Below are positions 1,818 to 52,587 of a DNA stretch of 64,000 nt, one piece after another; position 1 is the stretch's first letter; each line of letters starts with the position of its first letter. Origin of the DNA: Melastoma dodecandrum. Its lineage: Eukaryota > Streptophyta > Magnoliopsida > Myrtales > Melastomataceae. The translations under genes and the position numbers were made by a program. The notes under the pieces are model-generated. The model saw only the letters and a list, made by a program, of their open reading frames with translations, had not been told where the DNA came from and made no database searches. The stretch spans positions 5,580,001 through 5,644,000 of the forward strand of contig JARUPY010000397.1 in the NCBI GenBank assembly GCA_029817715.1, given 5' to 3'.

Positions 1818-2792
1818 TGTTGACATGGCAATTAATTTTGGGCCTGGGTTTAGAACAGGAACCCAGTACTCCCTCAAGTAATACTTCGAGCCCAAGACGT
1901 AATCGTCTAGGCCGACTCACGATGAAATCGACTAGGTCGATTTATGACAAAGTCGACTAGGTCGACTAATAAACGGGGTCGACTAAGTCGACTCACGATG
2001 AAGGAACATGGTGATCAAAGCCAATCAAGATGACTTAACAGTAGTTAGGTCTACTAGTAGAGTCGAATCGACGGAATCCTGGATAAAGTCGACCAAGTCG
2101 ATCGCAGTCCGTACAGGTCGGTCAAGTCGACGAGGTTGGAATAAATTTATTCATTTTTAATCACGTTTGCTAAAGATCGTAACTGATCTTAAATATCCAG
2201 GAACGTGATCCCATATAACAAGGGGGTTGTTGAGACACTCCCACGACATTAGGGATCACGATCTGTAACACCGTCTATAAAAGATTTATCTGTTACGCGT
2301 ACAAATCCTCTATAAATAGCAGAGGGATTTTCCAAAACAGGGGACGGATACACCCAGCCAAAACACTGAAGTTTGTTCGTCAACCTTAGGAAATTAGACA
2401 CCTTGACCCGGTTCATCGGTCAACCCCCCTTTCCACCAGCAGAGTGAGCTCGTAGGGCCTTTGCCGTCATCTCCCCACCAGCGACACCACCGACGGAGTG
2501 AGCTCGTAGGGCCTTCGTCACAGCCTCCCGCCAGCAACCACCACCGACGGAGCGAGCTTCCAAGGCCTTCGTCACAAGTTCCCCACCGTCACGGATTTCC
2601 ACGACGTTGTCAATACTTGCACTTGTTTTCCGTTTTTCAATGGCTGTAAGCCCTGTTTCCTTTACTCATTAAGATTGTAAGACTTGTATTTAATTTCAAT
2701 AAAATTGTACATCTTCTTACTGGCGACCACAATACAATTACTGTGAGTCCATTGCCAAATATTTCCGACGTGATCCGTTTCGTGCGCGAACA
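1818..2792 (+). repeat. 5' LTR of copy A
   Basis: This is a 975-bp LTR starting TGTTGACATGG and ending GCGCGAACA. A TATA box (TATAAAT, 2311-2317) and a polyadenylation signal (AATAAA, 2698-2703) set a plausible U3-R-U5 layout. The U3 part (about 1905-2135) contains six GTCGAC palindromes in about 230 bp, an unusual cluster that may be a binding-site array. The same LTR occurs at 13751-14725, 40669-41643 and 52603-53577. Confidence 0.95.
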
Positions 2793-2798
2793 CGTTTT

Positions 2799-2816
2799 TG
2801 GCGACCACAGTGGGAG
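2799..2816 (+). promoter_or_regulatory. primer-binding site of copy A
   Basis: Seven bases after the LTR lies TGGCGACCACAGTGGGAG. It begins with TGG, complementary to the CCA end of a tRNA, as expected for minus-strand priming. I have not assigned the tRNA. The gag start codon follows at 2820, so the untranslated leader beyond the LTR is only 27 nt. Confidence 0.7.
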
Positions 2817-2819
2817 CAC

Positions 2820-5800
2820 ATGCCGAGGAATACTCGAAGTACTACTACCCATGAGTCTCACAATCCCTTAGATGGGGAAAACCAGTCAGAACTTCCTCCG
2901 GGAATGAGCTTGCAAGCGCCGGCCCTAGGAGGCCAGGCAGCCACAAACCAGTCAGAACTTCCTCCGGGAATGAACTTGCCAGCGCCGGCCCTAGGAGGCC
3001 AGGCCGCTACAAACCAGTCCACCTTTGATTCGCATACCCCGTCCGAATTTATTTCGAGACTGGAGTTCCACAAGGAACTGGGGGATATGCGTCAGGAGTT
3101 GACTGATATGAAGGATATTCTAATGGACGTCCAAACTCTAATGGGGCGTCTTTCTGGCCCGAGAAATGAGGAAAGAGTAAGACCTCGTATGAGAGAAACC
3201 CCCTTTAGGGAGTCTACGTTCATGACGGACGCTCGACGAACTGCTCAAGGGCCACGTAACGTGACTTTTGAGCAATCTGAGATAAGGACAAATGCCCTTT
3301 TTGAACCTGGGAATCTGGTTCCCCCTAGTCGACCCTCTTCTTCACGTAATCGACCAACGAATACGCATTGGAATGAGGCAGGGGACTTTCCAGAGGAAAC
3401 AGATCAAGGGGAGGATTTTATCCCGACTCATCGCCCTGGCAAAGAACCTGTAATCGACGCGACTGGAGACCCTTATGAGCTCGGATCCCGAGGTGGAAAT
3501 TTCCGGGAGGAGCCTTCTTTCTACATGAGGAATCCAGCGAATCAGGCAATGAGGGATAGATCTCCGTATAGCCCGATAAGGTCGACTCGACCTCCAGCAC
3601 AGGCCCCAGTAGGCGGTGTACCCCCAGATTTGAGGGAGGCCATAACTCAGGTTATAGAGCAAGTCGTCCCCGGAATAGCTCGGCGAGACGATGCTTGTTT
3701 GTACAGGTCTCCCTATCCTGCGTATGTCGACAGGGATTTCCCTTTACCTAGAGGTTATAAAGTGCCCGACTTTACTCGTTTTTCGGGTGAAGACGAAATG
3801 ACCCCACTCGAGCATGTCGCTCGCTTCACTCACCAGCTTGGCGAGGCGGCTGGAAACGACTTTTGGAAACTGAAGCTCTTCCCTAACTCGTTAACAGGAG
3901 ATGCCTTTACGTGGTATGCGAGTTTGCCGCCAGGGTCAATAGCCTCGTGGACTCAGATGCAATCTATGTTCGTTAAGACCTTTGCTCGACTGGACACCCC
4001 CATGTCGATGTTTGAGGTAATGCGCCTTAAGCAGGCTAACGGAGAACACCCAGGGCAGTTTCTAATGAAACTCAGGAAAGCCCTACTACGGTGTAGTCCC
4101 CCCATACCGGAGAAGGATCAATCGCTTCTCGCATTAAATGCGTTGACTATCCCGTTCCGGAAAAAGCTGCAGGGCGAGCGCTTCGCTGACCTATATGACT
4201 TAGCGAGGAGGGCTACTGAGTATCATCAGCTCCTTACAGAGGAAGCCCACTTGACCCGAGCCTACCAAGTCGACACTTATGAAGTCGATGTGGCGGAATT
4301 TGTCAAGGGAGAGTCGACTATATGCGACCCCCTGACTAAGAAGAATTCCAAAGCTAAGGCATCTCAAAGGAATGCCGAAGAAAGAAAATACTCTTTCGAC
4401 ACAGATAAAGTCGACGCTATATTCGACTGGCTTCATCAAAGGAAAAGGATTAGACTTAAGCCCGGCCATCGAGCCCCTCAGACAGAGAGGGAAAAGACTA
4501 GGAATTACTGCAAGTGGCATGGGTCTTTCACCCATGCCACCAAGGACTGTTTGTCCTTTAGGAATATCATACAGGATTTAATAGAGTCTAAAGCGCTCCG
4601 TTTTCCAGAAGTCGACGAAGTCGCCGTGGTGGATAATAATCCATTCGGGGATGAAGTCGCTATTCATACGTTTGACATATTTGACGCTGAGGTTAATCTC
4701 TTAGAAGTTATTAACGACTCTGCTGTACCCTCGCAGGACGTACAAGCAACCGGCGAGACTTTGGTGGCTAATGCCCTCATGAAGCGACTGGCTGAACGAG
4801 GGGTCTTTATTCTGCCCAAAGGTAGGGAGAAGTGGCTATGCCACTGGCACCTGAACGACTCTCACACTACAGATCGGTGCCACACGTTCAAGAAGTACCT
4901 GCTGGACAGCAGGGCAGAGGAGTGGTACGACTTGACCCCATTCGAGGAAGCAGCAATGTCGCTGAACACTCCCCAAGGATCTTCTCACGCCCTCAAAAGC
5001 CCTCCTAGCGCAGATCGCCGAGTAGCCTTACGAGGAGGAAGAGGGGGCCCCCAGGGTCATAAGGGGAATGGAGAAACAGCCGCCCGGAGAACAGAACGCC
5101 CGGCACGACGACTGGAGTTCGTAGACTCATCTGGCCAAAGGGTCATCAAACAGGGGTACACTAGAACTACCCCTGTCAAGGAGATCAGGCCGGTAGAGGA
5201 ACACAAGGGAGCGGACCAACCTCAGCAGGCCATGAATCGCAGGCCCCGCTACGCGTCGCAGACGGTTGACCCTCAGGAACTGCGGAGGGGGCCACCTATC
5301 GCCCAATTCCTGGACGAAAAGCTGCTGTGCCAAAAGTGCAAGTTGATCGCTCATAACCGCATACTCATCACCCAGCTCTGCACAGCATGCTGCGTTAGCT
5401 ACTTCTTGCGCCTCGTCGACTTATCCGCAAAAGGGGAAATGCTGGTAAAGCCAGTCCGTCCTGAGGGTTCAGGTAACTCGAACCCTAACAAGCCCTCTTT
5501 GAATAGGCCGGCAGATAACCCTGTGCAGGTAGGATATGACCCAGCCGACGGAAGGTTTGTGGAGGTAAGTCGACTTCCTTCTGGTTCTAAGAAACCAAGG
5601 TTTGTCAAAGCGCTTAACCCCTCGTCTCAATGGCAGAAGGCAGAAAGGAAGGTTACGCTTCCCATAAGGGCTCAAAAGAGAAAAGAAAGGCGTCTAAGTC
5701 ACGCCCAGAAGAAGCCAAGAATGACCTCTGTGATGCCACCCGTGGGCGGGAACCACGCCACGGGGAAACAAGTCGCAGAACCCGAGCGGGTCGAGTCTAC

Positions 5801-6808
5801 TGACTACTCGGAAGACCCAGGCTCGAGCTTCGATTACACCCCTCTACGAGGAGATAAGCCCTGCGATTTCAACGCAGAACAAGGGCCCCTTGTGAGCTGT
5901 AACGCTCTCACCCTCCCTGCGGAATTCGCCCGCAACAACAAGTCGGAGACACCGGAAGGTAAAGCTCTCGACTCTAAAGTCACCACGTTTCCTTCTGGCT
6001 TCCCTCTACACTGGTTGAGGAAACCATCAGATCGCATGAAACAGCATATGCATTCGCTGTACATCTCAGCCACCTTTGATGGTGTCTTAGTAGGCCGAGT
6101 CTTAATAGACAACGGCGCCACTGTTAATGTTCTTCCCCTTGCCAAGTTTAGATTACTTGGGTACAAGCCTAGCGAGTTGGTGCAAACCGACGTAGCTGTA
6201 AGTGGCTTAATGGGAGAAAATCCGAGTGCCTGGGCATATGCTCCGTGCGCCTAGGCGTCGGGAGACACGAGCAGGAAACTGCTTTCTTTGTAATCGATAT
6301 AGCCCCCTCATTTAATGCGCTTTTAGGACGCGATTGGCTTCATAAGGCCGCTGCGATTCCATCTACTTTGCATAGGGAGTTGATCTTATGGCTTGACTCC
6401 GAAATAGAAATCGTTAAAGCCGATGAATACGCCTGTTGTGACAAGGGTATTTTGCATGCAGAAACGTGTAAGACAGTCAAGGACCTTACTCTGGACCAGC
6501 GCTACAAGCTGGGAGACCCCACAGTCGGACCCTTAGGTGAACCTTCTGGGAAGTTCGACTTCATCGTGAGCTACGGCACCTCTCATCCCAAGCCGGACGA
6601 AGGACCGATTGTGCCAACAGGATGGGGGCCCGACTTCACAGACAAAGACATGGACGAGGTCCTCCAGGAGGTAGTCACGGCCAAAGATGGGGGCGAGATG
6701 AACAACAGCCCGAGCGGCAACAAGGGAGAAGCGCCTAAGAGCCAAGAGAGCACTGCGACGGAGTTGGAGCCCGATAGACTCCTGCACGAAGGGATGTATG
6801 GACAGTGA
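2820..6808 (+). pseudogene. gag-protease of copy A, frameshifted
   Basis: The frame opens at ATG 2820. In order it has a duplicated 22-residue Pro/Gly/Ala-rich unit near the N-terminus (a 66-bp tandem repeat from about 2881), a retrotransposon gag domain (about residues 330-480), a Cys/His zinc-knuckle-like motif (YCKWHGSFTHATKDC, about residue 560), a second Cys/His-rich region, and an aspartic protease motif (LIDNGATVNVLP, about residue 1095). A single T is missing from a T run near 6207-6208 compared with copy B. The frame therefore runs out at 6254 and the rest (6245-6808) lies in another frame. The break falls in the protease region, so this copy should not make full-length Gag-Pro unless supplied in trans. 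Confidence 0.9.
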
Positions 6809-9800
6809 GGAAAGTCATGCGATCTCTGATATCCTACAGCGACTTCAGAAGCATGTTGGGATGACTAGGAAAGTAGGATGCCAGATAGGCAACATCGATT
6901 TCGAAATTAGGCCATGTAATAACGTGGACACCGATTTAGGTGGTGTCCAGAGTCGTGAGTCACTGATGATGCCATGTGACTCACTCGTAGGCGTCAATTT
7001 AGGCGAGGCATTGAGCCCTCGAATTGTTTTAATCAGTTCTTCGATGAATAAAGAACTTTTCCATTCTATTAAAGCTACTCTAGAAGAGTTTAAAGATTGT
7101 TTTGCTTGGGATTACACTGAGATGCCTGGCCTAGATCGCCGACTTGTGGAACACAAGTTACCAATCAAAACAGGATTTAAACCAGTCCAACAGGCGCCAA
7201 GGAGAATGACTCATGAGGTCACTCAAGCAGTATTCGAGGAAGTCAAAAAGCTCTTTAAAGCCGGATATATAAGGACATCGAGGTACACTGAATGGATATC
7301 CAGTATAGTTCCTGTTATTAAGAAGAATGGCAAGATTAGGGTTTGCATCGACTTTAGGGACCTGAATCGTGCCACTCCGAAGGATGAGTATCCTATGCCC
7401 ATCGCAGATGATTTAGTCGACAAGACTGCAGGGCACCAAATTATGTCCTTCATGGATGGTTTCTCAGGATATAACCAAATCTTCCTAGCCGAAGAGGATA
7501 TCCATAGAACTACGTTCAGATGTCCTTTAGGCATTTTTGAATGGGTAGTCATGCCATTCGGACTCAAAAATGCTGGGGCAACCTACCAACGGGCCATGAA
7601 CGCTATATTTGATGCCTTGATTAGCAAAACGGTCGAAGTATACATAGACGATATAGTGGTCAAGTCACAAGACGAGAAGTCACATGTTAATGACCTTAGA
7701 AATGCTTTCATTCAAATGAGAAAGCATCAGCTCAAACTAAATCCTCTCAAATGTGCCTTCGGAGTCAGAGCAGGACATTTCCTAGGTTTCTTAGTTCATC
7801 AACGTGGCATAGAAGTCGACCAGAACAAAGTGAACGCCATTCAAAGATTGAACCCTCCGAGTAATAAGAAACAGTTACAGGCTTTCTTAGGAAGGGTCAA
7901 TTACCTAAGGCGATTTATTGGTAACGTCGCTGGACGGACAGAAATTTTCTCGACTTTATTAAAGGCGAAGGGAAATTTTGTATGGAGCAACGAACACCAA
8001 AAAGCATTTGAAGGCTTAAAGGAGTACTTAATGAAACCGCCTGTGCTTGCCCCTCCTCGGATAGGAAAGCCCTATCTGCTTTACGTGGCAGCGACCGAAT
8101 CAGTCATCGGCGCCATGTTAGCCCAAGAGGCAGAGGACAAAACTGAGAGAGCAGTCTACTATCTGTCAAGACAACTGACTGCTACAGAAAAGCGCTATAC
8201 AATTAATGAGAAGTTGTGCCTGTCAGTCTTTTATGCTGTTAAGAAGCTGAGACATTATATCGGATCCCAAGAGGTTCATGTTATTGCCAAGTCTCCAATC
8301 ATAAAATACTTTTTCGAAAGTCCCCTATTGACTGGAAGAATTAGTAAATGGAGCTTGGTCCTGTCCGCATACGATCTGCGTTTCAAACCTCAACAGTCGG
8401 TGAAAGGGCAGGCCTTAGCCGACTTCTTAGTAAATCACGATCCATCTACATTAATCGATCAAGAGGAATCCCTTGAGGATGTCTGGCAAGCTTGGTTTGA
8501 TGGATCTTCGGCAAAATCCGGCGTAGGTATAGGCCTCCATATACTTTCGCCATTAGGAAAGGACGTTCGCCTAGCATATCGTTTGTCGGCGACTCATACA
8601 AACAACGCGACCGAGTATGAGGCGTTGATCACGCTCTTGAAGGAATTGTTAGCCTTGGGAGCCAGGAAAGCCAGAGTAATGGGAGACTCTCAACTGGTTA
8701 TTAACCAGGTGAACGGCGACTCTCTATGTCAGGAGAAACTCGCACCCTATCATCAAGTCGCTCAAAGGTTGGTTAAGCGGTTCGAAGCAATTACTTTCCT
8801 CTTTGTAGGCCGGGAGGAGAACACAATCGCTAACGACTTAGCCCAAAAAGCTTCAGGGTACAAGCCTAGAGGAGGAAGCGATTGTATCCCAGAAATAGCT
8901 TCCCACCTAGCTCCCCAAGGCGACGCGTTCACTCTGAACATAATGACAAACGATAAAGATTGGAGGAGGCCAATCACCGACTTCCTATCCAACCCAACGC
9001 AAAAGGCGAGCCAAAGAATCAAAACTCAGGCCTTGTCGTATACCCTTATGGATGGGGTACTTTACAGAAAGACCAAAGAAGGAGTCCTACTAAGGTGCGT
9101 CGACTTAGACGAAGCGACCCCAATTATGTTGGAGACTCACCAGGGTTTATGCGGGTCTCACCAATCTGGCACCAAAATGTCTTGGACCATCCAAAGACAT
9201 GGTTTTTACTGGCCATCAATGCTAAAGAACTGCATAGAAATGGCTAGGGGATGCCAAGAGTGTCAAAAACATGGTCCGGTGACAAGGGCCCCAGCGTCCA
9301 ACTTAGTCCCAGTCATAAAACCTTGGCCATTTAGAACTTGGGCCCTGGATATAATCGGAGAAATTCACCCACACTCGAGTAAAGGCGATGCCTACATTCT
9401 AGTCGCCACTGACTACTTTACTAAGTGGGTTGAGGCTCAAGTATATAAGAAAATTGACCACAAAGAGGTGATCGACTTTCTCAGATCTTCCATCATTTAC
9501 AGGTTTGGGATTCCCCAGAATATTGTAGTAGACAATGCCACCGTTTTCAATAATGAGAAGGTGCGTGAATTCGCTGCCGAGTTCAACTTTTCAATCACTA
9601 ATTCGACACCTTATTACCCCCAGTCGAATGGACAAGCCGAAGCTACTAATAAGCTCATAAAGAATAACATTCAGAAAATGGTTGGTGCACATCCAAGAGA
9701 ATGGCACAAACTATTACAAGACACCTTGTGGGCTCTAAGAGTCACCAAGAGAGGCAGCACAGGAGAAGCCCCTTTTTCGCTAGTATATGGGCAAGATGCT

Positions 9801-10253
9801 GTCCTACCTATTGAGATTCGATACAAGTCGCTCAGGGTAGCTCATCCTGATTTGCAAGACGAGGCAATGTACCTCGCTTTAGAAGAATTGGAAAAGAAGC
9901 GACTCGACGTAATAGATAGACTCGAGGTACACAAGCAGAGAATTGCTAGGCATTATAATAAAAAAGTTGTCCATAAGCGCTTCAAAGTGGGCGACTTAGT
10001 ATGGAAGATGATCCTACCCCTCAAATCAAAGGACCAAGTCCTGGGAAAGTGGTCTCCTAATTGGGAGGGCCCATATGAAGTGTGCGAAACATACTCATCT
10101 AATACGTATCGACTCATGACCAGAGAAGGGGATAGGCACCCATTGAAGGTCAATGGTAAATACCTTAAACCCTACCGCACGACTATCTGGGAAGCTCATC
10201 ATAAAATCCTAAGACAAAGGACTCCATTAATTTGGGAAGCGCTTAATTTCTAA
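6798..10253 (+). CDS. pol polyprotein of copy A (RT, RNase H x2, integrase)
   Basis: This is an open frame of 1151 residues. Reverse transcriptase spans about residues 125-310 with the YIDD box near 282-285. A first RNase H-like region follows (about 425-530); at its expected first catalytic aspartate it reads LYVAATES, so it looks degenerate. A second RNase H (about 565-690) keeps acidic residues in FDGSS, TEYEAL and GDSQL, the dual arrangement known from the Tat lineage. Integrase has an HHCC finger (about 780-825) and a DDE core (WALDIIGE, VVDNATVF, NGQAEATNK). The ATG at 6798 overlaps the gag-pro stop by 11 nt in a different frame, so translation needs reinitiation, frameshifting or a processed RNA. 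No stop interrupts it. Confidence 0.94.
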   Translation: MDSEESHAISDILQRLQKHVGMTRKVGCQIGNIDFEIRPCNNVDTDLGGVQSRESLMMPCDSLVGVNLGEALSPRIVLISSSMNKELFHSIKATLEEFKDCFAWDYTEMPGLDRRLVEHKLPIKTGFKPVQQAPRRMTHEVTQAVFEEVKKLFKAGYIRTSRYTEWISSIVPVIKKNGKIRVCIDFRDLNRATPKDEYPMPIADDLVDKTAGHQIMSFMDGFSGYNQIFLAEEDIHRTTFRCPLGIFEWVVMPFGLKNAGATYQRAMNAIFDALISKTVEVYIDDIVVKSQDEKSHVNDLRNAFIQMRKHQLKLNPLKCAFGVRAGHFLGFLVHQRGIEVDQNKVNAIQRLNPPSNKKQLQAFLGRVNYLRRFIGNVAGRTEIFSTLLKAKGNFVWSNEHQKAFEGLKEYLMKPPVLAPPRIGKPYLLYVAATESVIGAMLAQEAEDKTERAVYYLSRQLTATEKRYTINEKLCLSVFYAVKKLRHYIGSQEVHVIAKSPIIKYFFESPLLTGRISKWSLVLSAYDLRFKPQQSVKGQALADFLVNHDPSTLIDQEESLEDVWQAWFDGSSAKSGVGIGLHILSPLGKDVRLAYRLSATHTNNATEYEALITLLKELLALGARKARVMGDSQLVINQVNGDSLCQEKLAPYHQVAQRLVKRFEAITFLFVGREENTIANDLAQKASGYKPRGGSDCIPEIASHLAPQGDAFTLNIMTNDKDWRRPITDFLSNPTQKASQRIKTQALSYTLMDGVLYRKTKEGVLLRCVDLDEATPIMLETHQGLCGSHQSGTKMSWTIQRHGFYWPSMLKNCIEMARGCQECQKHGPVTRAPASNLVPVIKPWPFRTWALDIIGEIHPHSSKGDAYILVATDYFTKWVEAQVYKKIDHKEVIDFLRSSIIYRFGIPQNIVVDNATVFNNEKVREFAAEFNFSITNSTPYYPQSNGQAEATNKLIKNNIQKMVGAHPREWHKLLQDTLWALRVTKRGSTGEAPFSLVYGQDAVLPIEIRYKSLRVAHPDLQDEAMYLALEELEKKRLDVIDRLEVHKQRIARHYNKKVVHKRFKVGDLVWKMILPLKSKDQVLGKWSPNWEGPYEVCETYSSNTYRLMTREGDRHPLKVNGKYLKPYRTTIWEAHHKILRQRTPLIWEALNF

Positions 10254-10341
10254 GAAAATCGTGCTAGGCTTCAGTAACGCTGTTTGGAAGAATGAATTTA
10301 GCATAGTGGGCAGAAATTCATTCGAGAAACAAGATATTCGA

Positions 10342-10347
10342 TTTATT
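10342..10347 (-). terminator. polyadenylation signal of the antisense gene, copy A
   Basis: AATAAA on the minus strand, about 35 nt after the antisense stop codon at 10381. It lies in the 127-bp gap between the convergent ends of pol and the antisense gene. The position is right for a plant near-upstream element. Confidence 0.5.
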
Positions 10348-10380
10348 CAGTAAAGCAAAAATAACCGAATTGCGTCGTTC

Positions 10381-13300
10381 TTAGTCCAAGTTTAGCCTCC
10401 ATAACCCGCCAACGTCTCTAAAATCGAGGGCGAGGGATTTACGAGCTCGTCGCTTCGCGTTCACCCTGTTTCGCTGGGCATACAGGTCGACGACCTTCTC
10501 TCTGTCCTTCTCCGCGCTAGCCTCCAGCTCCTCGATTTCTTGGGTATTGATCGATGCAAGCTGCCGAGTCAGGTCATTCTTTAGGTTCGTGTAGAACTCT
10601 ATCTGTCTCTCTGCCTCGGTCAGCTTCTCTTGCACATCAACCAAACGTTGGCGGGCGTCCTGTGCAGCTTTAGAGGCCTGCTCTCGAGCGTCATTGATCG
10701 ATCGAATATTCGAGTCGGTCAAGTCGTAGGTGAGCAGGTCGGCGTAGTAATCCTTCCAATGGGTCCAATACGTCGACCTGAAGTTCTTGCAGGCCCCTAA
10801 TATTTCGTCTGTGACCCGAGGGGATGTCTCGATCTCCTTCAGCAGCTTCTGCATCTTCTCAAACTCGTCGACGTTTAAGGGGTCAGTGAGCAGAAGCTGG
10901 CAGAATTCTTCAATGTCTTGGTGAAGCTTCATCCATGGGTCGACAGTCGAGGTCGCTGCAGCAGGAGCCTGCAGAACAAGAAATGAAATGTTGCTAAGGC
11001 ACAATATCCCCGAACAGTCAACACCTCCATACAATCGAATACTTACTTCTGAAGGTAGTGAATCCTCGGAACTCTCGCCCGAAGAAGTGGGGGGAGTAGG
11101 AGCCTTTTTGCGACCAGCAGTCGCCTTCACTCTCTTCGGACGAGCCTGTGAAGTGTCGCGGTTAGAACCGCGATAACAACCCCATGCCTTGGGTAAAAGA
11201 AGAACACGTACCATTGGTGGCACAGGAGTGTGGACTGAAGAAGAAGGAACGCTCTGCTCTTCCTCCTCTCGCATCGACGGAGGGGGCGCTCCCTCTCGCG
11301 TCGACCGAATTGAAGGATCGACTACAACTGTAGTAGTTCCTTCTTGTAGCAGGGCCTCAGGAACCTGCTCCTCCTGGGGTAGAGTGTAATAAAACCAAAG
11401 TTCATATATGAACTAGAGTAATATATCCTAGCAGGAAGTCGAGCTCACCTCGACATTTGAGGTCGTTGCACCCGTCTCGACTACAACCGGAGTAGGCTGG
11501 TCAGCACCGCCGGTGGACGCGGCGGCCTAAGCAATATAGTGCGGGTTAGATACAGAAGTTCAAGATGAATTAGAACCAGTAGAGTCATACCTCTGTAGTC
11601 GCTCCTCGAGCGACACCGACCGTCATTAAGGTCGCAGGCACCGCAGCAGATGGTGAACTCACTGGGGCCGCCGCTGCTGGCGATCTCGAAGGAGAAGTCG
11701 CTGCTACGATAGTCGGCGACTTGGGAAGAGGGGCCGCCACTGAGGCTGGTACCTTCACCAATTTCCTCCTCTGGGATAAAGGCATCTCTTCGAGATCTCC
11801 TGCCTCGATCGCCTTGCGCTTTGGAGCGCTTTTGGGTCGAGCCTTAGAGGGTTCACCTACAGCTGTCTCCCCGGGGCTCGCCACCTTAGCTTTCCCCTTG
11901 CCAGTCGACTTAGGCCTAGAAGGAGCAGGAGCAAGGGGAGCCTTAGGCTTGGACTTTCCAGAGCCCTGAGGCATCGTCGATCCTGAAAAGAAGAAAGCTC
12001 GCGATTACTACTAAGAACCCAATACTCTTAAAGTAAAGCTAAAAGCCTTTACCTCTCGCTTTGATATGCGCGTCGCTGAGGTAAAAATCAGGCTCTTTGG
12101 AGACCTCCAAGAAATGCATCAAAGCCCGCAGCTCTTCATAAGTAGTCGACCACAGCACGGTGAAGAATTGTGTGGCGAAACAGGCGGAGGTACCAGACTG
12201 GAATGCTATATGGGAGAGCTGCGCCTTTCTGTTGAGCAAGTCGAGGGTCTTTGGGGAGATCGGCTTGCACGCAATTCTCTTCATTCTGTCCCCGCACAAG
12301 CCACCGGTAGGGTCGGCAAGTGGAACTGCTGCACCCTGGATGAACCCAAACTGCCTTGCACACAGCTGAGGATTATAAGCTTCAAAGGTTAGGAAGCCGT
12401 CGAAGATAACTGGTAAGTCCCTGCGGGTCAATACCCCATCCCAGAAACCATAAGCAGTTTGAAGTTTAACTTCCTGAGCAAACGTCTTGCCGCATGGTGC
12501 CCAGCTGCGTCGATCTGCCCTGCCGAGGTCGACGATGTGCTTCATGTGGCCGGTGATCGATGTCATAAGCCATTGATCCCTCCGCTGACAGCACTGCTCT
12601 AAGATAGTCTCCCCATAATAAGCAGACTCGAGGGGCGTCGAAGGGCCCTTGAACCCAGTCAATCCTGGCATCCACATAGCCGACCAGAGGTGAACTAACC
12701 AGAGCAACCCTCCTGCTGGATGTTTTGGAAACGGCTTGATCTGAGTCGTCGCTCTGTCCAGATCGTGGTAAAGAAGACCCAGAATGAAGGGGCCCCAAGA
12801 GATGTCTTCATTAGTCTCCCTCAGAAAGTTGGCCACTGGATAAGCAGTGTGGCTGACCTTCTTCCCTGGGAAGCAATAGACAAACTTGCTTAACCAGGTG
12901 CTGAGGAACTCGACCTCCTCCCGGGCGCCAAAACGCTCAGTCGACAGCTTTTCATCTGGCCCTTTGCCTACTGAGGCCATTTTTAAGTGCCTGTTTACCA
13001 CCTCCATGTACTGGAGGGCGCCCTTGGGATTAATATCGCCTGCCTGAGAATATTGACGAACAGGGAGGCTATTGACTTTGCACCTGGTCAAAATCTTCAC
13101 ATCTGCCAATGTAACAGACATGGGACCCTCCGGGAAATAGAAGCAATTGACGGCAGAATTCCAGAAAGGCAACATTGCCGAGCAAACTCTAGGATCACAG
13201 CTCTTATCTGCTACGGACATCCTAAAGAACCTCAGGATCTTCTGATTCCTAAACTTTTCTGTGAAGTGCTCCTCCCACATCTCGAGCCATTCCACCATCT

Positions 13301-13553
13301 CAGATTTAGACGCAGAAGGAAAACACAAGAAGGATCCCTGACCTTCCCAGTTGAGGGGATCGACAAAGTTGGGATGGCAAATCGGGATGGGCTTCTCAGT
13401 GATGAGATAGTTGAGCGGCACCGTCCCCGGGAAAAGATGCTCCGGCAGGATAGGTCCGAGAGCGACGCCAGATCCTTGTTCCTCCGCGACCGGAATGGGT
13501 CCGGCTGGTCCCGCACGCTGATTATGGAGCTCGAAAGACTCAAAAGTCGACAT
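10381..13553 (-). CDS. antisense six-exon plant mobile domain (PMD) gene carried by copy A
   Basis: The exons on the minus strand are 13553-12053, 11982-11591, 11526-11449, 11373-11212, 11145-11047 and 10968-10381. The five introns are 64-78 bp, all GT-AG with good sites (for example donors AG/GTAAAG and GAA/GTAAGT, acceptors CTTTTCAG and TTCTGCAG). Joined, the exons total 2820 nt and keep one frame for 939 residues. Exon 1 (residues 1-500) resembles the plant mobile domain (aminotransferase-like, PF10536), for example VTLADVKILTRC followed later by AYPVANFLRE and GPFILGLLYHDL. Exons 2-5 encode a Pro/Ala/Ser/Lys-rich, probably disordered, segment. Exon 6 ends in a coiled coil (about residues 835-925). 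I start at ATG 13553, which has A at -3 and follows a TATA box by about 135 bp. PMD proteins in plants include nuclear silencing-related factors and transposon-borne forms; a role for this one is unknown. Confidence 0.83.
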
Positions 13554-13687
13554 CTTTTCAAGGATCGGAGGATTTTTAAGGAGGGAGACGAAGAGTTTTC
13601 TCAGAAATGAGGGTTTCTGGTTTCGTGGAGAAGATGGAGAAGTGTTGAGCAAGGAAGGAAAGTGCGGGAAAAGGACGACGATTCTCC

Positions 13688-13695
13688 TTTATATA
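13688..13695 (-). promoter_or_regulatory. TATA box of the antisense gene, copy A
   Basis: TATATAAA on the minus strand within CCCTATATAAAGG, about 135 bp upstream of the antisense ATG. With the usual spacing, transcription would start near 13660. It lies outside the LTR, so the antisense gene appears to have its own promoter. The equivalent site in copy B (52540-52547) is identical. Confidence 0.6.
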
Positions 13696-13735
13696 GGGTA
13701 TGATTTTTGCTGAGTCGGCATAGCCAACCCAGCAT

Positions 13736-13746
13736 AAAAAGGGGGG
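13736..13746 (+). promoter_or_regulatory. polypurine tract of copy A
   Basis: AAAAAGGGGGG, four bases before the 3' LTR. This is the expected plus-strand primer for reverse transcription. Confidence 0.85.
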
Positions 13747-13750
13747 CTTA

Positions 13751-14725
13751 TGTTGACATGGCAATTAATTTTGGGCCTGGGTTTAGAACAGGAACCCAGT
13801 ACTCCCTCAAGTAATACTTCGAGCCCAAGACGTAATCGTCTAGGCCGACTCACGATGAAATCGACTAGGTCGATTTATGACAAAGTCGACTAGGTCGACT
13901 AATAAACGGGGTCGACTAAGTCGACTCACGATGAAGGAACATGGTGATCAAAGCCAATCAAGATGACTTAACAGTAGTTAGGTCTACTAGTAGAGTCGAA
14001 TCGACGGAATCCTGGATAAAGTCGACCAAGTCGATCGCAGTCCGTACAGGTCGGTCAAGTCGACGAGGTTGGAATAAATTTATTCATTTTTAATCACGTT
14101 TGCTAAAGATCGTAACTGATCTTAAATATCCAGGAACGTGATCCCATATAACAAGGGGGTTGTTGAGACACTCCCACGACATTAGGGATCACGATCTGTA
14201 ACACCATCTATAAAAGATTTATCTGTTACGCGTACAAATCATCTATAAATAGCAGAGGGATTTTCCAAAACAGGGGACGAATACACCCAGCCAAAACACT
14301 GAAGTTTGTTCGTCAACCTTAGGAAATTAGACACCTTGACCCGGTTCATCGGTCAACCCCCCTTTCCACCAGCAGAGTGAGCTCGTAGGGCCTTTGCCGT
14401 CATCTCCCCGCCAGCGACACCACCGACGGAGTGAGCTCGTAGGGCCTTCGTCACAGCCTCCCGCCAGCAACCACCACCGACGGAGCGAGCTTCCAAGGCC
14501 TTCGTCACAAGTTCCCCACCGTCACGGATTTCCACGACGTTGTCAATACTTGCACTTGTTTTCCGTTTTTCAATGGCTGTAAGCCCTGTTTCCTTTACTC
14601 ATTAAGATTGTAAGACTTGTATTTAATTTCAATAAAATTGTACATCTTCTTACTGGCGACCACAATACAATTACTGTGAGTCCATTGCCAAATATTTCCG
14701 ACGTGATCCGTTTCGTGCGCGAACA
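13751..14725 (+). repeat. 3' LTR of copy A
   Basis: 975 bp, differing from the 5' LTR at about four positions (around 14206, 14230, 14280 and 14409). Its TATA box (14244-14250) is intact and points toward the ascorbate peroxidase start codon at 14842, only 117 bp beyond the LTR end, so LTR-driven read-through into that gene is possible. Confidence 0.95.
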
Positions 14726-40668: not shown

Positions 40669-41643
40669 TGTTGACATGGCAATTAATTTTGGGCCTGGGT
40701 TTAGAACAGGAACCCAGTACTCCCTCAAGTAATACTTCGAGCCCAAGACGTAATCGTCTAGGCCGACTCACGATGAAATCGACTAGGTCGATTTATGACA
40801 AAGTCGACTAGGTCGACTAATAAACGGGGTCGACTAAGTCGACTCACGATGAAGGAACATGGTGATCAAAGCCAATCAAGATGACTTAACAGTAGTTAGG
40901 TCTACTAGTAGAGTCGAATCGACGGAATCCTGGATAAAGTCGACCAAGTCGATCGCAGTCCGTACAGGTCGGTCAAGTCGACGAGGTTGGAATAAATTTA
41001 TTCATTTTTAATCACGTTTGCTAAAGATCGTAACTGATCTTAAATATCCAGGAACGTGATCCCATATAACAAGGGGGTTGTTGAGACACTCCCACGACAT
41101 TAGGGATCACGATCTGTAACACCATCTATAAAAGATTTATCTGTTACGCGTACAAATCCTCTATAAATAGCAGAGGGATTTTCCAAAACAGGGGACGGAT
41201 ACACCCAGCCAAAACACTGAAGTTTGTTCGTCAACCTTAGGAAATTAGACACCTTGACCCGGTTCATCGGTCAACCCCCCTTTCCACCAGCAGAGTGAGC
41301 TCGTAGGGCCTTTGCCGTCATCTCCCCGCCAGCGACACCACCGACGGAGTGAGCTCGTAGGGCCTTCGTCACAGCCTCCCGCCAGCAACCACCACCGACG
41401 GAGCGAGCTTCCAAGGCCTTCGTCACAAGTTCCCCACCGTCACGGATTTCCACGACGTTGTCAATACTTGCACTTGTTTTCCGTTTTTCAATGGCTGTAA
41501 GCCCTGTTTCCTTTACTCATTAAGATTGTAAGACTTGTATTTAATTTCAATAAAATTGTACATCTTCTTACTGGCGACCACAATACAATTACTGTGAGTC
41601 CATTGCCAAATATTTCCGACGTGATCCGTTTCGTGCGCGAACA
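40669..41643 (+). repeat. 5' LTR of copy B
   Basis: 975 bp, same signals as in copy A: TATA box at 41162-41168, AATAAA at 41549-41554, and six GTCGAC motifs in U3. Confidence 0.95.
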
Positions 41644-41649
41644 CGTTTT

Positions 41650-41667
41650 TGGCGACCACAGTGGGAG
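41650..41667 (+). promoter_or_regulatory. primer-binding site of copy B
   Basis: TGGCGACCACAGTGGGAG, seven bases after the LTR, identical to copy A. Confidence 0.7.
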
Positions 41668-41670
41668 CAC

Positions 41671-44600
41671 ATGCCGAGGAATACTCGAAGTACTACTACC
41701 CATGAGTCTCACAATCCCTTAGATGGGGAAAACCAGTCAGAACTTCCTCCGGGAATGAGCTTGCAAGCGCCGGCCTTAGGAGGCCAGGCAGCCACAAACC
41801 AGTCAGAACTTCCTCCGGGAATGAACTTGCCAGCGCCGGCCCTAGGAGGCCAGGCCGCTACAAACCAGTCCACCTTTGATTCGCATACCCCGTCCGAATT
41901 TATTTCGAGACTGGAGTTCCACAAGGAACTGGGGGATATGCGTCAGGAGTTGACTGATATGAAGGATATTCTAATGGACGTCCAAACTCTAATGGGGCGT
42001 CTTTCTGGCCCGAGAAATGAGGAAAGAGTAAGACCTCGTATGAGAGAAACCCCCTTTAGGGAGTCTACGTTCATGACGGACGCTCGACGAACTGCTCAAG
42101 GGCCACGTAACGTGACTTTTGAGCAATCTGAGATAAGGACAAATGCCCTTTTTGAACCTGGGAATCTGGTTCCCCCTAGTCGACCCTCTTCTTCACGTAA
42201 TCGACCAACGAATACGCATTGGAATGAGGCAGGGGACTTTCCAGAGGAAACAGATCAAGGGGAGGATTTTATCCCGACTCATCGCCCTGGCAAAGAACCT
42301 GTAATCGACGCGACTGGAGACCCTTATGAGCTCGGATCCCGAGGTGGAAATTTCCGGGAGGAGCCTTCTTTCTACATGAGGAATCCAGCGAATCAGGCAA
42401 TGAGGGATAGATCTCCGTATAGCCCGATAAGGTCGACTCGACCTCCAGCACAGGCCCCAGTAGGCGGTGTACCCCCAGATTTGAGGGAGGCCATAACTCA
42501 GGTTATAGAGCAAGTCGTCCCCGGAATAGCTCGGCGAGACGATGCTTGTTTGTACAGGTCTCCCTATCCTGCGTATGTCGACAGGGATTTCCCTTTACCT
42601 AGAGGTTATAAAGTGCCCGACTTTACTCGTTTTTCGGGTGAAGACGAAATGACCCCACTCGAGCATGTCGCTCGCTTCACTCACCAGCTTGGCGAGGCGG
42701 CTGGAAACGACTTTTGGAAACTGAAGCTCTTCCCTAACTCGTTAACAGGAGATGCCTTTACGTGGTATGCGAGTTTGCCGCCAGGGTCAATAGCCTCGTG
42801 GACTCAGATGCAATCTATGTTCGTTAAGACCTTTGCTCGACTGGACACCCCCATGTCGATGTTTGAGGTAATGCGCCTTAAGCAGGCTAACGGAGAACAC
42901 CCAGGGCAGTTTCTAATGAAACTCAGGAAAGCCCTACTACGGTGTAGTCCCCCCATACCGGAGAAGGATCAATCGCTTCTCGCATTAAATGCGTTGACTA
43001 TCCCGTTCCGGAAAAAGCTGCAGGGCGAGCGCTTCGCTGACCTATATGACTTAGCGAGGAGGGCTACTGAGTATCATCAGCTCCTTACAGAGGAAGCCCA
43101 CTTGACCCGAGCCTACCAAGTCGACACTTATGAAGTCGATGTGGCGGAATTTGTCAAGGGAGAGTCGACTATATGCGACCCCCTGACTAAGAAGAATTCC
43201 AAAGCTAAGGCATCTCAAAGGAATGCCGAAGAAAGAAAATACTCTTTCGACACAGATAAAGTCGACGCTATATTCGACTGGCTTCATCAAAGGAAAAGGA
43301 TTAGACTTAAGCCCGGCCATCGAGCCCCTCAGACAGAGAGGGAAAAGACTAGGAATTACTGCAAGTGGCATGGGTCTTTCACCCATGCCACCAAGGACTG
43401 TTTGTCCTTTAGGAATATCATACAGGATTTAATAGAGTCTAAAGAGCTCCGTTTTCCAGAAGTCGACGAAGTCGCCGTGGTGGATAATAATCCATTCGGG
43501 GATGAAGTCGCTATTCATACGTTTGACATATTTGACGCTGAGGTTAATCTCTTAGAAGTTATTAACGACTCTGCTGTACCCTCGCAGGACGTACAAGCAA
43601 CCGGCGAGACTTTGGTGGCTAATGCCCTCATGAAGCGACTGGCTGAACGAGGGGTCTTTATTCTGCCCAAAGGTAGGGAGAAGTGGATATGCCACTGGCA
43701 CCTGAACGACTCTCACACTACAGATCGGTGCCACACGTTCAAGAAGTACCTGCTGGACAGCAGGGCAGAGGAGTGGTACGACTTGACCCCATTCGAGGAA
43801 GCAGCAATGTCGCTGAACACTCCCCAAGGATCTTCTCACGCCCTCAAAAGCCCTCCTAGCGCAGATCGCCGAGTAGCCTTACGAGGAGGAAGAGGGGGCC
43901 CCCAGGGTCATAAGGGGAATGGAGAAACAGCCGCCCGGAGAACAGAACGCCCGGCACGACGACTGGAGTTCGTAGACTCATCTGGCCAAAGGGTCATCAA
44001 ACAGGGGTACACTAGAACTACCCCTGTCAAGGAGATCAGGCCGGTAGAGGAACACAAGGGAGCGGACCAACCTCAGCAGGCCATGAATCGCAGGCCCCGC
44101 TACGCGTCGCAGACGGTTGACCCTCAGGAACTGCGGAGGGGGCCACCTATCGCCCAATTCCTGGACGAAAAGCTGCTGTGCCAAAAGTGCAAGTTGATCG
44201 CTCATAACCGCATACTCATCACCCAGCTCTGCACAGCATGCTGCGTTAGCTACTTCTTGCGCCTCGTCGACTTATCCGCAAAAGGGGAAATGCTGGTAAA
44301 GCCAGTCCGTCCTGAGGGTTCAGGTAACTCGAACCCTAACAAGCCCTCTTTGAATAGGCCGGCAGATAACCCTGTGCAGGTAGGATATGACCCAGCCGAC
44401 GGAAGGTTTGTGGAGGTAAGTCGACTTCCTTCTGGTTCTAAGAAACCAAGGTTTGTCAAAGCGCTTAACCCCTCGTCTCAATGGCAGAAGGCAGAAAGGA
44501 AGGTTACGCTTCCCATAAGGGCTCAAAAGAGAAAAGAAAGGCGTCTAAGTCACGCCCAGAAGAAGCCAAGAATGACCTCTGTGATGCCACCCGTGGGCGG

Positions 44601-45660
44601 GAACCACGCCACGGGGAAACAAGTCGCAGAACCCGAGCGGGTCGAGTCTACTGACTACTCGGAAGACCCAGGCTCGAACTTCGATTACACCCCTCTACGA
44701 GGAGATAAGCCCTGCGACTTCAATGCAGAACAAGGGCCCCTTGTGAGCTGTAACGCTCTCACCCTCCCTGCGGAATTCGCCCGCAACAACAAATTGGAGA
44801 CACCGGAAGGTAAAACTCTCGACTCTAAAGTCACTACATTTCCTTCTGGCTTCCCTCTACACTGGTTGAGGAAACCATCAGATCGCATGAAACAGCATAT
44901 GCATTCGCTGTACATCTCAGCCACCTTTGATGGTGTCTTAGTAGGCCGAGTCTTAATAGACAACGGCGCCACTGTTAATGTTCTTCCCCTTGCCAAGTTT
45001 AGATTACTTGGGTACAAGCCTAGCGAGTTGGTGCGAACCGACGTAGCTGTAAGTGGCTTTAATGGGAGAAAATCCGAGTGCCTGGGCATATGCTCCGTGC
45101 GCCTAGGCGTCGGGAGACACGAGCAGGAAACTGCTTTCTTTGTAATCGATATAGCCCCCTCATTTAATGCGCTTTTAGGACGCGATTGGCTTCATAAGGC
45201 CGCTGCGATTCCATCTACTTTGCATAGGGAGTTGATCTTATGGCTTGACTCCGAAATAGAAATCGTTAAAGCCGATGAATACGCCTGTTGTGACAAGGGT
45301 ATTTTGCATGCAGAAACGTGTAAGACAGTCAAGGACCTTACTCTGGACCAGCGCTACAAGCTGGGAGACCCCACAGTCGGACCCTTAGGTGAACCTTCTG
45401 GGAAGTTCGACTTCATCGTGAGCTACGGCACCTCTCATCCCAAGCCGGACGAAGGACCGATTGTGCCAACAGGATGGGGGCCCGACTTCACAGACAAAGA
45501 CATGGACGAGGTCCTCCAGGAGGTAGTCACGGCCAAAGATGGGGGCGAGATGAACAACAGCCCGAGCGGCAACAAGGGAGAAGCGCCTAAGAGCCAAGAG
45601 AGCACTGCGACGGAGTTGGAGCCCGATAGACTCCTGCACGAAGGGATGTATGGACAGTGA
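41671..45660 (+). CDS. Gag-protease polyprotein of copy B, intact
   Basis: This is an open frame of 1329 residues from ATG 41671. Features in order are the duplicated 22-residue N-terminal unit, gag domain (about residues 330-480), zinc-knuckle-like YCKWHGSFTHATKDC (about 560), a second Cys/His cluster (ICHWHLNDSHTTDRC, about 670), basic and Pro-rich linkers, and the aspartic protease motif LIDNGATVNVLP (about 1095). It overlaps the pol ATG by 11 nt (45650-45660). Gag should form the cytoplasmic particle and the protease should release the mature parts. Compared with copy A, the T run near 45058 has one more T, which keeps the frame. Confidence 0.95.
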   Translation: MPRNTRSTTTHESHNPLDGENQSELPPGMSLQAPALGGQAATNQSELPPGMNLPAPALGGQAATNQSTFDSHTPSEFISRLEFHKELGDMRQELTDMKDILMDVQTLMGRLSGPRNEERVRPRMRETPFRESTFMTDARRTAQGPRNVTFEQSEIRTNALFEPGNLVPPSRPSSSRNRPTNTHWNEAGDFPEETDQGEDFIPTHRPGKEPVIDATGDPYELGSRGGNFREEPSFYMRNPANQAMRDRSPYSPIRSTRPPAQAPVGGVPPDLREAITQVIEQVVPGIARRDDACLYRSPYPAYVDRDFPLPRGYKVPDFTRFSGEDEMTPLEHVARFTHQLGEAAGNDFWKLKLFPNSLTGDAFTWYASLPPGSIASWTQMQSMFVKTFARLDTPMSMFEVMRLKQANGEHPGQFLMKLRKALLRCSPPIPEKDQSLLALNALTIPFRKKLQGERFADLYDLARRATEYHQLLTEEAHLTRAYQVDTYEVDVAEFVKGESTICDPLTKKNSKAKASQRNAEERKYSFDTDKVDAIFDWLHQRKRIRLKPGHRAPQTEREKTRNYCKWHGSFTHATKDCLSFRNIIQDLIESKELRFPEVDEVAVVDNNPFGDEVAIHTFDIFDAEVNLLEVINDSAVPSQDVQATGETLVANALMKRLAERGVFILPKGREKWICHWHLNDSHTTDRCHTFKKYLLDSRAEEWYDLTPFEEAAMSLNTPQGSSHALKSPPSADRRVALRGGRGGPQGHKGNGETAARRTERPARRLEFVDSSGQRVIKQGYTRTTPVKEIRPVEEHKGADQPQQAMNRRPRYASQTVDPQELRRGPPIAQFLDEKLLCQKCKLIAHNRILITQLCTACCVSYFLRLVDLSAKGEMLVKPVRPEGSGNSNPNKPSLNRPADNPVQVGYDPADGRFVEVSRLPSGSKKPRFVKALNPSSQWQKAERKVTLPIRAQKRKERRLSHAQKKPRMTSVMPPVGGNHATGKQVAEPERVESTDYSEDPGSNFDYTPLRGDKPCDFNAEQGPLVSCNALTLPAEFARNNKLETPEGKTLDSKVTTFPSGFPLHWLRKPSDRMKQHMHSLYISATFDGVLVGRVLIDNGATVNVLPLAKFRLLGYKPSELVRTDVAVSGFNGRKSECLGICSVRLGVGRHEQETAFFVIDIAPSFNALLGRDWLHKAAAIPSTLHRELILWLDSEIEIVKADEYACCDKGILHAETCKTVKDLTLDQRYKLGDPTVGPLGEPSGKFDFIVSYGTSHPKPDEGPIVPTGWGPDFTDKDMDEVLQEVVTAKDGGEMNNSPSGNKGEAPKSQESTATELEPDRLLHEGMYGQ

Positions 45661-48600
45661 GGAAAGTCATGTGATCTCTGATATCCTACAGCGACTTCAG
45701 AAGCATGTTGGGATGACTAGGAAAGTAGGATGCCAGATAGGCAACATCGATTTCGAAATTAGGCCATGTAATAACGTGGACACCGATTTAGGTGGTGTCC
45801 AGAGTCGTGAGTCACTGATGATGCCATGTGACTCACTCGTAGGCGTCAATTTAGGCGAGGCATTGAGCCCTCGAATTGTTTTAATCAGTTCTTCGATGAA
45901 TAAAGAACTTTTCCATTCTGTTAAAGCTACTCTAGAAGAGTTTAAAGATTGTTTCGCTTGGGATTACACTGAGATGCCTGGCCTAGATCGCCGACTTGTG
46001 GAACACAAGTTACCAATCAAAACAGGATTTAAACCAGTCCAACAGGCGCCAAGGAGAATGACTCATGAGGTCACTCAAGCAGTATTCGAGGAAGTCAAAA
46101 AGCTCTTTAAAGCCGGATATATAAGGACATCGAGGTACACTGAATGGATATCCAGTATAGTTCCTGTTATTAAGAAGAATGGCAAGATTAGGGTTTGCAT
46201 CGACTTTAGGGACCTGAATCGTGCCACTCCGAAGGATGAGTATCCTATGCCCATCGCAGATGATTTAGTCGACAAGACTGCAGGGCACCAAATTATGTCC
46301 TTCATGGATGGTTTCTCAGGATATAACCAAATCTTCCTAGCCGAAGAGGATATCCATAAAACTGCGTTCAGATGTCCTTTAGGCATTTTTGAATGGGTAG
46401 TCATGCCATTCGGACTCAAAAATGCTGGGGCAACCTACCAACGGGCCATGAACGCTATATTTGATGCCTTGATTAGCAAAACGGTCGAAGTATACATAGA
46501 CGATATAGTGGTCAAGTCACAAGACGAGAAGTCACATGTTAATGACCTTAGAAATGCTTTCATTCAAATGAGAAAGCACCAGCTCAAACTAAATCCTCTC
46601 AAATGTGCCTTCGGAGTCAGAGCAGGACATTTCCTAGGTTTCTTAGTTCATCAACGTGGCATAGAAGTCGACCAGAACAAAGTGAACGCCATTCAAAGAT
46701 TGAACCCTCCGAGTAATAAGAAACAGTTACAGGCTTTCTTAGGAAGGGTCAATTACCTAAGGCGATTTATTGGTAACGTCGCTGGACGGACAAAAATTTT
46801 CTCGACTTTATTAAAGGCGAAGGGAAATTTTGTATGGAGCAACGAACACCAAAAAGCATTTGAAGGCTTAAAGGAGTACTTAATGAAACCGCCTGTGCTT
46901 GCCCCTCCTCGGATAGGAAAGCCCTATCTGCTTTACGTGGCAGCGACCGAATCAGTCATCGGCGCCATGTTAGCCCAAGAGGCAGAGGACAAAACTGAGA
47001 GAGCAGTCTACTATCTGTCAAGACAACTGACTGCTACAGAAAAGCGCTATACAATTAAGGAGAAGTTGTGCCTGTCAGTCTTTTATGCTGTTAAGAAGCT
47101 GAGACATTATATCGGAACCCAAGAGGTTCATGTTATTGCCAAGTCTCCAATCATAAAATACTTTTTCGAAAGTCCCCTATTGACTGGAAGAATTAGTAAA
47201 TGGAGCTTGGTCCTGTCCGCATACGATCTGCGTTTCAAACCTCAACAGTCGGTGAAAGGGCAGGCCTTAGCCGACTTCTTAGTAAATCACGATCCATCTA
47301 CATTAATCGATCAAGAGGAATCCCTTGAGGATGTCTGGCAAGCTTGGTTTGATGGATCTTCGGCAAAATCCGGCGTAGGTATAGGCCTCCATATACTTTC
47401 GCCATTAGGAAAGGACGTTCGCCTAGCATATCGTTTGTCGGCGACTCATACAAACAACGCGACCGAGTATGAGGCGTTGATCACGCTCTTGAAGGAATTG
47501 TTAGCCTTGGGAGCCAGGAAAGCCAGAGTAATGGGAGACTCTCAACTGGTTATTAACCAGGTGAACGGCGACTCTCTATGTCAGGAGAAACTCGCACCCT
47601 ATCATCAAGTCGCTCAAAGGTTGGTTAAGCGGTTCGAAGCAATTACTTTCCTCTTTGTAGGCCGGGAGGAGAACACAATCGCTAACGACTTAGCCCAAAA
47701 AGCTTCAGGGTACAAGCCTAGAGGAGGAAGCGATTGTATCCCAGAAATAGCTTCCCACCTAGCTCCCCAAGGCGACGCGTTCACTCTGAACATAATGACA
47801 AACGATAAAGATTGGAGGAGGCCAATCACCGACTTCCTATCCAACCCAACGCAAAAGGCGAGCCAAAGAATCAAAACTCAGGCCTTGTCGTATACCCTTA
47901 TGGATGGGGTACTTTACAGAAAGACCAAAGAAGGAGTCCTACTAAGGTGCGTCGACTTAGACGAAGCGACCCCAATTATGTTGGAGACTCACCAGGGTTT
48001 ATGCGGGTCTCACCAATCTGGCACCAAAATGTCTTGGACCATCCAAAGACATGGTTTTTACTGGCCATCAATGCTAAAGAACTGCATAGAAATGGCTAGG
48101 GGATGCCAAGAGTGTCAAAAACATGGTCCGGTGACAAGGGCCCCAGCGTCCAACTTAGTCCCAGTCATAAAACCTTGGCCATTTAGAACTTGGGCCCTGG
48201 ATATAATCGGAGAAATTCACCCACACTCGAGTAAAGGCGATGCCTACATTCTAGTCGCCACTGACTACTTTACTAAGTGGGTTGAGGCTCAAGTATATAA
48301 GAAAATTGACCACAAAGAGGTGATCGACTTTCTCAGATCTTCCATCATTTACAGGTTTGGGATTCCCCAGAATATTGTAGTAGACAATGCCACCGTTTTC
48401 AATAATGAGAAGGTGCGTGAATTCGCTGCCGAGTTCAACTTTTCAATCACTAATTCGACACCTTATTACCCCCAGTCGAATGGACAAGCCGAAGCTACTA
48501 ATAAGCTCATAAAGAATAACATTCAGAAAATGGTTGGTGCACATCCAAGAGAATGGCACAAACTATTACAAGACACCTTGTGGGCTCTAAGAGTCACCAA

Positions 48601-49105: not shown

Positions 49106-49193
49106 GAAAATCGTGCTAGGCTTCAGTAACGCTGTTTGGAAGAATGAATTTAGCATAGTGGGCAGAAATTCATTCGAGAAACAAGATATTCGA

Positions 49194-49199
49194 TTTATT
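49194..49199 (-). terminator. polyadenylation signal of the antisense gene, copy B
   Basis: AATAAA on the minus strand, about 35 nt after the antisense stop at 49233, identical to copy A. Confidence 0.5.
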
Positions 49200-49232
49200 C
49201 AGTAAAGCAAAAATAACCGAATTGCGTCGTTC

Positions 49233-52200: not shown

Positions 52201-52405
52201 ATTTGAGGGGATCGACAAAGTTGGGATGGCAAATCGGGATGGGCTTCTCAGTGATGAGATAGTTGAGCGGCACCGTCCCCGGGAAAAGATGCTCCGGCAG
52301 GATAGGTCCGAGAGCGACGCCAGATCCTTGTTCCTCCGCGACCGGAATGGGTCCGGCTGGTCCCGCACGCTGATTATGGAGCTCGAAAGACTCAAAAGTC
52401 GACAT
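49233..52405 (-). CDS. antisense six-exon plant mobile domain (PMD) gene carried by copy B
   Basis: The exons on the minus strand are 52405-50905, 50834-50443, 50378-50301, 50225-50064, 49997-49899 and 49820-49233. All five GT-AG introns, splice sites, frame and stop are kept, again giving 939 residues. It differs from copy A by scattered substitutions concentrated in exon 3/intron 2 and the 3' part of exon 1, none creating a stop. Exon 3 begins Gly-Glu-Ala-Ser here versus Ala-Ala-Ala-Ser in copy A. Domain layout is PMD (exon 1), low-complexity Pro/Ala/Lys (exons 2-5) and coiled coil (exon 6). Survival of every splice site and the frame in two copies argues for a functional gene and not chance open frames. 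Confidence 0.83.
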
Positions 52406-52539
52406 CTTTTCAAGGATCGGAGTATTTTTAAGGAGGGAGACGAAGAGTTTTCTCAGAAATGAGGGTTTCTGGTTTCTTGGAGAAGATGGAGAAGTGTTGA
52501 GCAAGGAAGGAAAGTGCGGGAAAAGGACGACGATTCTCC

Positions 52540-52547
52540 TTTATATA
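52540..52547 (-). promoter_or_regulatory. TATA box of the antisense gene, copy B
   Basis: TATATAAA on the minus strand, 135 bp before the antisense ATG at 52405, identical to copy A. Confidence 0.6.
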
Positions 52548-52587
52548 GGGTATGATTTTTGCTGAGTCGGCATAGCCAACCCAGCAT

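Follow-up and report, generated by a model that had tools for sequence, protein, structure and literature searches.

A Tat-clade retrotransposon of Melastoma dodecandrum carrying a predicted intron-split antisense gene for a plant mobile domain and coiled-coil protein

The window, meaning the whole 64,000-nt stretch of Melastoma dodecandrum DNA that was analysed, contains two copies, A and B, of a Ty3/gypsy retrotransposon that share 99.6% identity (Table 1). The 5-bp target duplications of the two copies are unlike, which indicates two separate insertions, and the small number of differences within each LTR pair (4 of 975 sites in copy A and 5 of 975 in copy B) indicates that both insertions are recent. 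The gag-pro frame of copy B (41671-45660) is open and overlaps pol (45650-49105) by 11 bases in a different frame, while that of copy A is broken.

Table 1. Positions in the window of the two element copies and of the features discussed in the text
Feature	Position	Strand	Remarks
Ty3/gypsy element, copy A	1818..14725	+	975-bp LTRs at 1818-2792 and 13751-14725; TG...CA ends; 5-bp target duplication CTGCC
gag and start of protease	2820..6254	+	gag-pro frame split in copy A
pol, copy A	6798..10253	+	RT, RNase H, second RNase H, integrase
AATAAA	10342..10347	-	putative polyadenylation signal
Exon 6	10381..10968	-	588 nt including stop; predicted long coiled-coil helix
Intron 5	10969..11046	-	78 bp; length divisible by three, frame open; missing from P0012
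Exon 5	11047..11145	-	99 nt
Intron 4	11146..11211	-	66 bp; length divisible by three, frame open; missing from P0012
Exon 4	11212..11373	-	162 nt
Intron 3	11374..11448	-	75 bp; in-frame stops inside
Exon 3	11449..11526	-	78 nt; lowest conservation of all parts
Intron 2	11527..11590	-	64 bp
Exon 2	11591..11982	-	392 nt; basic Pro/Ala/Ser-rich linker
Intron 1	11983..12052	-	70 bp; GTAAAG...TTTCAG; junction also in gene models P0003 and P0012
Exon 1	12053..13553	-	1501 nt; carries plant mobile domain (PMD)
TATA box TATATAAA	13688..13695	-	putative antisense core promoter; outside the LTR
Polypurine tract AAAAAGGGGGG	13736..13746	+	direct reading
Element copy B	40669..53577	+	975-bp LTRs; target duplication CGACC; 99.6% identity to copy A
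Antisense gene, copy B	49233..52405	-	six exons and five introns as in copy A; 939 aa

Re-reading and joining of the minus strand from 13553 to 10381, between pol and the 3' LTR of copy A, gave six exons and five GT-AG introns that form one frame of 939 residues (2820 nt when joined, with the sole stop at the end). A first-pass annotation, made from the letters of the DNA, had proposed this structure, with introns of 64-78 bp, and had described it as intact in copy B; both statements were borne out. In copy B, 38.85 kb away, the five introns have the same lengths and the 939-residue product differs at 10 positions, and no relative of the antisense gene other than these two copies was found in a search of the window. 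Introns 4 and 5 are open and multiples of three, so that their removal is not forced by stops; both have good GT-AG sites and a G+C content below that of the adjoining exons. On the antisense strand, a plain ORF scan returned two frames longer than 600 bp, of 537 and 297 residues.

Promoter-like and terminator-like signals flank the gene where the first-pass annotation had placed them. The TATA box TATATAAA lies approximately 135 bp upstream of the antisense ATG, and the 12.9-kb element has a single further TATAWAW match on its minus strand. It is located between the polypurine tract and the ATG, so that the putative promoter would be internal and not borne by the LTR; an antisense promoter within the LTR was considered and rejected because the sole minus-strand TATAWAW match near the ATG is outside the LTR. 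There is no upstream ATG between the TATA box and the start codon, and the assumed 111-nt leader is 66% pyrimidine. Downstream, an AATAAA, a motif that occurs seven times on the element's minus strand, starts 34 nt beyond the antisense stop. The antisense gene and pol converge, with 127 bases separating the pol stop (10253) from the antisense stop (10381).

The pol product has an RVT_3 match at residues 593-685, after the RNase H matches (which end at 525) and before rve (844-941). A second RNase H is the mark of the Tat clade and, in the Ogre and Retand subclades, is located between RH and INT (PMC6317226); the order of the pol domains thus places the element in the Tat clade, in either the Ogre or the Retand subclade. 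The element resembles Ogre in having a PMD-type extra ORF, a feature that is not defining alone as it is present in 57% of Ogre elements (PMC6317226). It differs from Ogre in having no intron-like gap between gag-pro and pol, which overlap in copy B, whereas the Ogre ORFs are approximately 274 bp apart and the gap is an intron in pea and Medicago (PMC6317226). In Retand elements, pol and the 3' LTR are described as lying 2.9-6.6 kb apart, with antisense coding in the interval (PMC11963269), and the corresponding region here is 3,497 bp with the two long antisense ORFs. The sizes of the LTR, the internal region and the pol-3' LTR region are all within the ranges published for Retand, where coiled-coil (Smc-type) antisense ORFs are also found (PMC11963269). 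However, an antisense TRP28 domain (PF04195) is reported in 97% of Retand clusters (PMC11963269), and exon 1 carries a PMD instead; a Pfam scan ruled out TRP28 as a domain of exons 1 and 6, with the PMD the only domain of exon 1. Judged by these domain and size marks, the element is a Tat-clade Ty3/gypsy retrotransposon with mixed Ogre and Retand features.

Exon 1 matched PF10536 over residues 111-407 with a score of 85 bits (E=7.2e-24), above the curated cut-off of 34.9, which makes it a true member of the PMD family, as the first-pass annotation had supposed. Exons 2-5 encode a linker that is net basic and rich in Pro, Ala and Ser. For exon 6, single-sequence AlphaFold2 predicted one long helix at residues 85-194 (mean pLDDT 79.1, pTM 0.37), with pLDDT block means of 88-97 across residues 91-180. 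Hydrophobicity in exon 6 peaked at a period of 3.5 residues, the top of eight periods (P=0.01 against 2000 shuffles, uncorrected for the eight), as is expected of a coiled coil, and helix and heptad signal together agree with the coiled-coil tail proposed earlier. The Pfam scan of exon 6 gave no domain over the cut-off. Sequences of solved structures gave no match to exon 1 at E values up to 1, and AlphaFold2 applied to the PMD with nine sequences had a mean pLDDT of 30.6, which is useless as a model. The antisense product is probably a nuclear, self-associating regulator, its location being suggested by short basic clusters in the protein and by analogy.

Relatives of the product were sought by three protein searches (E values up to 1e-3), all of which gave matches from Melastoma candidum only, in agreement with the Melastoma origin of the window. 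The exon 1 search, among 3318 candidates, gave nine matches; the tail search, in which the 7991 candidates with most shared words were scored, added P0012; and a profile search with exon 1 returned the same 10 proteins. Full exon 1 is covered by P0003-P0006 and P0012, at 76-96% identity, while the other five of the 10 (P0007-P0011) span 40-78% of it. P0012, an annotated protein of 918 residues, is the only relative that covers the whole product and is collinear with all six exons. Its identity to exons 1-6 is 88, 69, 24, 56, 79 and 81%, respectively, so that conservation is high at both protein ends and low in the linker. P0012 aligns flush at junctions 1, 4 and 5, even though introns 4 and 5 have no stop to block read-through. 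P0003, which is 96% identical, shares the exon 1/exon 2 junction and is spliced differently after exon 1; by our reading of the alignment it appears to be without part of exon 2 and to run into intron 3. The collinearity of a separately annotated 918-aa Melastoma protein with the joined product indicates, at the level of sequence comparison, that the gene model is more than chance.

Comparison of exon 1 with P0004, P0005, P0006 and P0012 showed that 66-75% of substitutions were conservative (BLOSUM62 at or above 0), in contrast to 47-50% expected of random single-base changes. This excess gave binomial P values of 6e-5 to 9e-4 (null of 0.5, with counts rebuilt from rounded fractions), although the tests are not independent because the copies share ancestry. 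Significance was not reached for P0003 (18 changes, P=0.41) or for exon 6 of P0012 (P=0.056). No constraint was seen between copies A and B, for which three of 10 residue changes were conservative (P=0.95), codon changes were 10 nonsynonymous and five synonymous versus 12.3 and 3.7 expected (P=0.15), and rates were equal in exons (16 of 2820 bases) and introns (2 of 353 bases). The spectrum of differences between the copies was uneven. Transversions of the G/T or A/C type made up 18 of 25 differences between 10427-14241 of copy A and 49279-53093 of copy B, whereas transitions predominated from 2273 to 10019 (20 of 24 substitutions). LTR comparison showed that, of these transversions, three occur in the 3' LTR of copy B alone and one in the 3' LTR of copy A alone. 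This excess in the 3' part hints at a local mutational process or at assembly errors, and some of the A/B differences may therefore be artefactual.

Grande (gene23), RIRE2, Retand and PvRetro13 are known to carry antisense ORFs in the region from pol to the 3' LTR, alike in position and orientation to the gene presented here (PMC7264820). The gene23 ORF is reported to have its own upstream promoter and to encode a nuclear protein, and the PvRetro13 ORF holds an SMC-type domain (PMC7264820). The present gene has the same antisense placement as gene23, and its putative promoter is a TATA box outside the LTR. It appears to be set apart from gene23-type ORFs, as these are described in PMC7264820, by its PMD head and five predicted introns. 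In a 2025 survey of Retand elements, every recently active cluster had antisense coding in the interval from pol to the 3' LTR, with function given as unknown (PMC11963269). PMDs are likewise documented in both mobile elements and silencing factors (PMC6317226, PMC8616336, PMC5418596), so that both precedents cited by the first-pass annotation are in the literature. The PMD is the commonest atypical domain in gypsy consensuses (PMC9289625), and gypsy PMDs group in separate clades (PMC5418596). MAIN and MAIL1 are host PMD proteins that act with PP7L in transposable element silencing (PMC8616336, PMC5418596, PMC7156037); they have their domain family in common with exon 1 but are host genes of clade PMD-C (PMC5418596). 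Plant LTR elements are generally without introns, Ogre and EVADE being exceptions (PMC12786077). The parts covered of a study of sunflower antisense ORFs (PMC11728184) and of a study of gypsy consensuses (PMC9289625) contain no gene structure like that of the present gene, and a multi-exon antisense PMD gene was not found in a search of an open-access literature collection that lacks three key papers, one of them the 2013 gene23 paper. Published work already covers PMDs encoded by gypsy elements, accessory genes in antisense orientation and promoters specific to such genes; the novelty seems to be the resolved multi-intron structure of the antisense gene.

The first-pass annotation had interpreted the locus as a host-interacting gene with its own antisense promoter. 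The structural part of this interpretation stood: there is a predicted antisense, intron-split PMD/coiled-coil gene flanked by promoter-like and terminator-like signals, present in both element copies and matched by one collinear, diverged annotated protein. That the gene is transcribed, spliced and translated and its product nuclear is reasonably probable, while a role in countering host silencing is a tentative suggestion. The most likely explanation is that the locus is an accessory gene that is expressed and spliced and encodes a nuclear regulator. Under this explanation, the region from pol to the 3' LTR of a recently inserted Tat-clade element would house an accessory gene in the orientation opposite to pol. 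Transcription by RNA polymerase II would begin at the TATA box, which lies just internal to the 3' LTR, and proceed towards pol; the five short introns would be removed, and the transcript would end in the 127-bp gap between the convergent genes. The sense genomic RNA, which is the template for reverse transcription, would carry the introns reversed and unrecognised, and the introns would thus survive rounds of copying because of their antisense placement. Standard retrotransposition reporters are the mirror image of such an antisense-intron design (PMC12786077). The PMD head, basic Pro/Ala/Ser-rich linker and coiled-coil tail would probably form dimers or larger assemblies in the nucleus. The likeliest job of the protein would be a trans effect on host chromatin or silencing, such as competition with MAIN/MAIL1, with the outcome that the element family stays transcribed. 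Interference with MAIN/MAIL1-type silencing is plausible and would be the most attractive specific role; counter-silencing has been proposed in general terms (PMC8616336) and for MULE elements (PMC5418596).

The antisense transcript itself might instead be what matters, pairing with genomic RNA to give dsRNA and small RNAs that limit or tune the element, with the protein secondary. RNA and protein roles have both been discussed for such antisense ORFs (PMC7264820), antisense transcripts of LTR elements can trigger silencing (PMC12786077), and the gene is convergent with pol and within the stretch copied into genomic RNA. An RNA-only role nevertheless leaves unexplained the 939-codon frame over preserved splice sites, the PMD and the conservative changes in diverged copies, and we consider this account improbable. 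Capture of a host PMD gene with its introns at the DNA level, followed by passive carriage and decay, is judged slightly less probable again. Introns would suggest an origin in DNA and not in a spliced mRNA, and the A/B comparison is without constraint, but five M. candidum relatives retain full exon 1, four of these show conservative substitutions, and gypsy PMDs fall in clades of their own (PMC5418596).

A further alternative concerns the gene model itself: exon 1 could be a real antisense PMD ORF and the downstream exons partly wrong, with introns 4 and 5 retained or with separate ORFs. The open frames of these two introns, the separate 537- and 297-aa entries in the plain ORF list and the apparent reading of P0003 into intron 3 are all consistent with this. 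Against it, introns 4 and 5 have good splice sites and a lower G+C than the exons beside them, and P0012 is without both segments and joined flush. This was the least probable of the accounts weighed, and an expressed, spliced gene for a nuclear regulator remains the preferred reading.

A resolved spliced model indicates what to clone and test and accounts for the persistence of introns in a retroelement. Single-ORF surveys may shorten such proteins, and an ORF-based survey would score as two genes what is probably one spliced gene. The Retand survey was built on ORFs of at least 600 bp, lists 104 antisense ORFs in 63 clusters and makes no mention in its text of intron, PMD or PF10536 (PMC11963269); its antisense ORFs may deserve re-reading for spliced pairs. 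If the PMD acts on host silencing, then gypsy PMD clades would be tied to host PMD silencing factors and counter-silencing would become directly testable. A bolder and rather unlikely proposal is that a full eukaryotic-style gene on the strand unseen by reverse transcription makes a PMD decoy that disarms MAIN/MAIL1-PP7L and, more widely, that paired Tat antisense ORFs (N-terminal TRP28/PMD and C-terminal Smc-like) are exons of one spliced gene split by ORF-based surveys.

Some other sequence features of the window were recorded. The hexamer GTCGAC is enriched in the element (1818-14725), with 34 occurrences in 12.9 kb versus 11 in the 38.2 kb outside both elements, and six of the 34 fall within copy A's 5' LTR. 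Outside both elements, a 460-bp sequence is repeated at 34292-34749 and 56682-57146 with 90% identity, and overlapping direct and inverted repeats, 76-93% alike, are clustered at 58654-59369.
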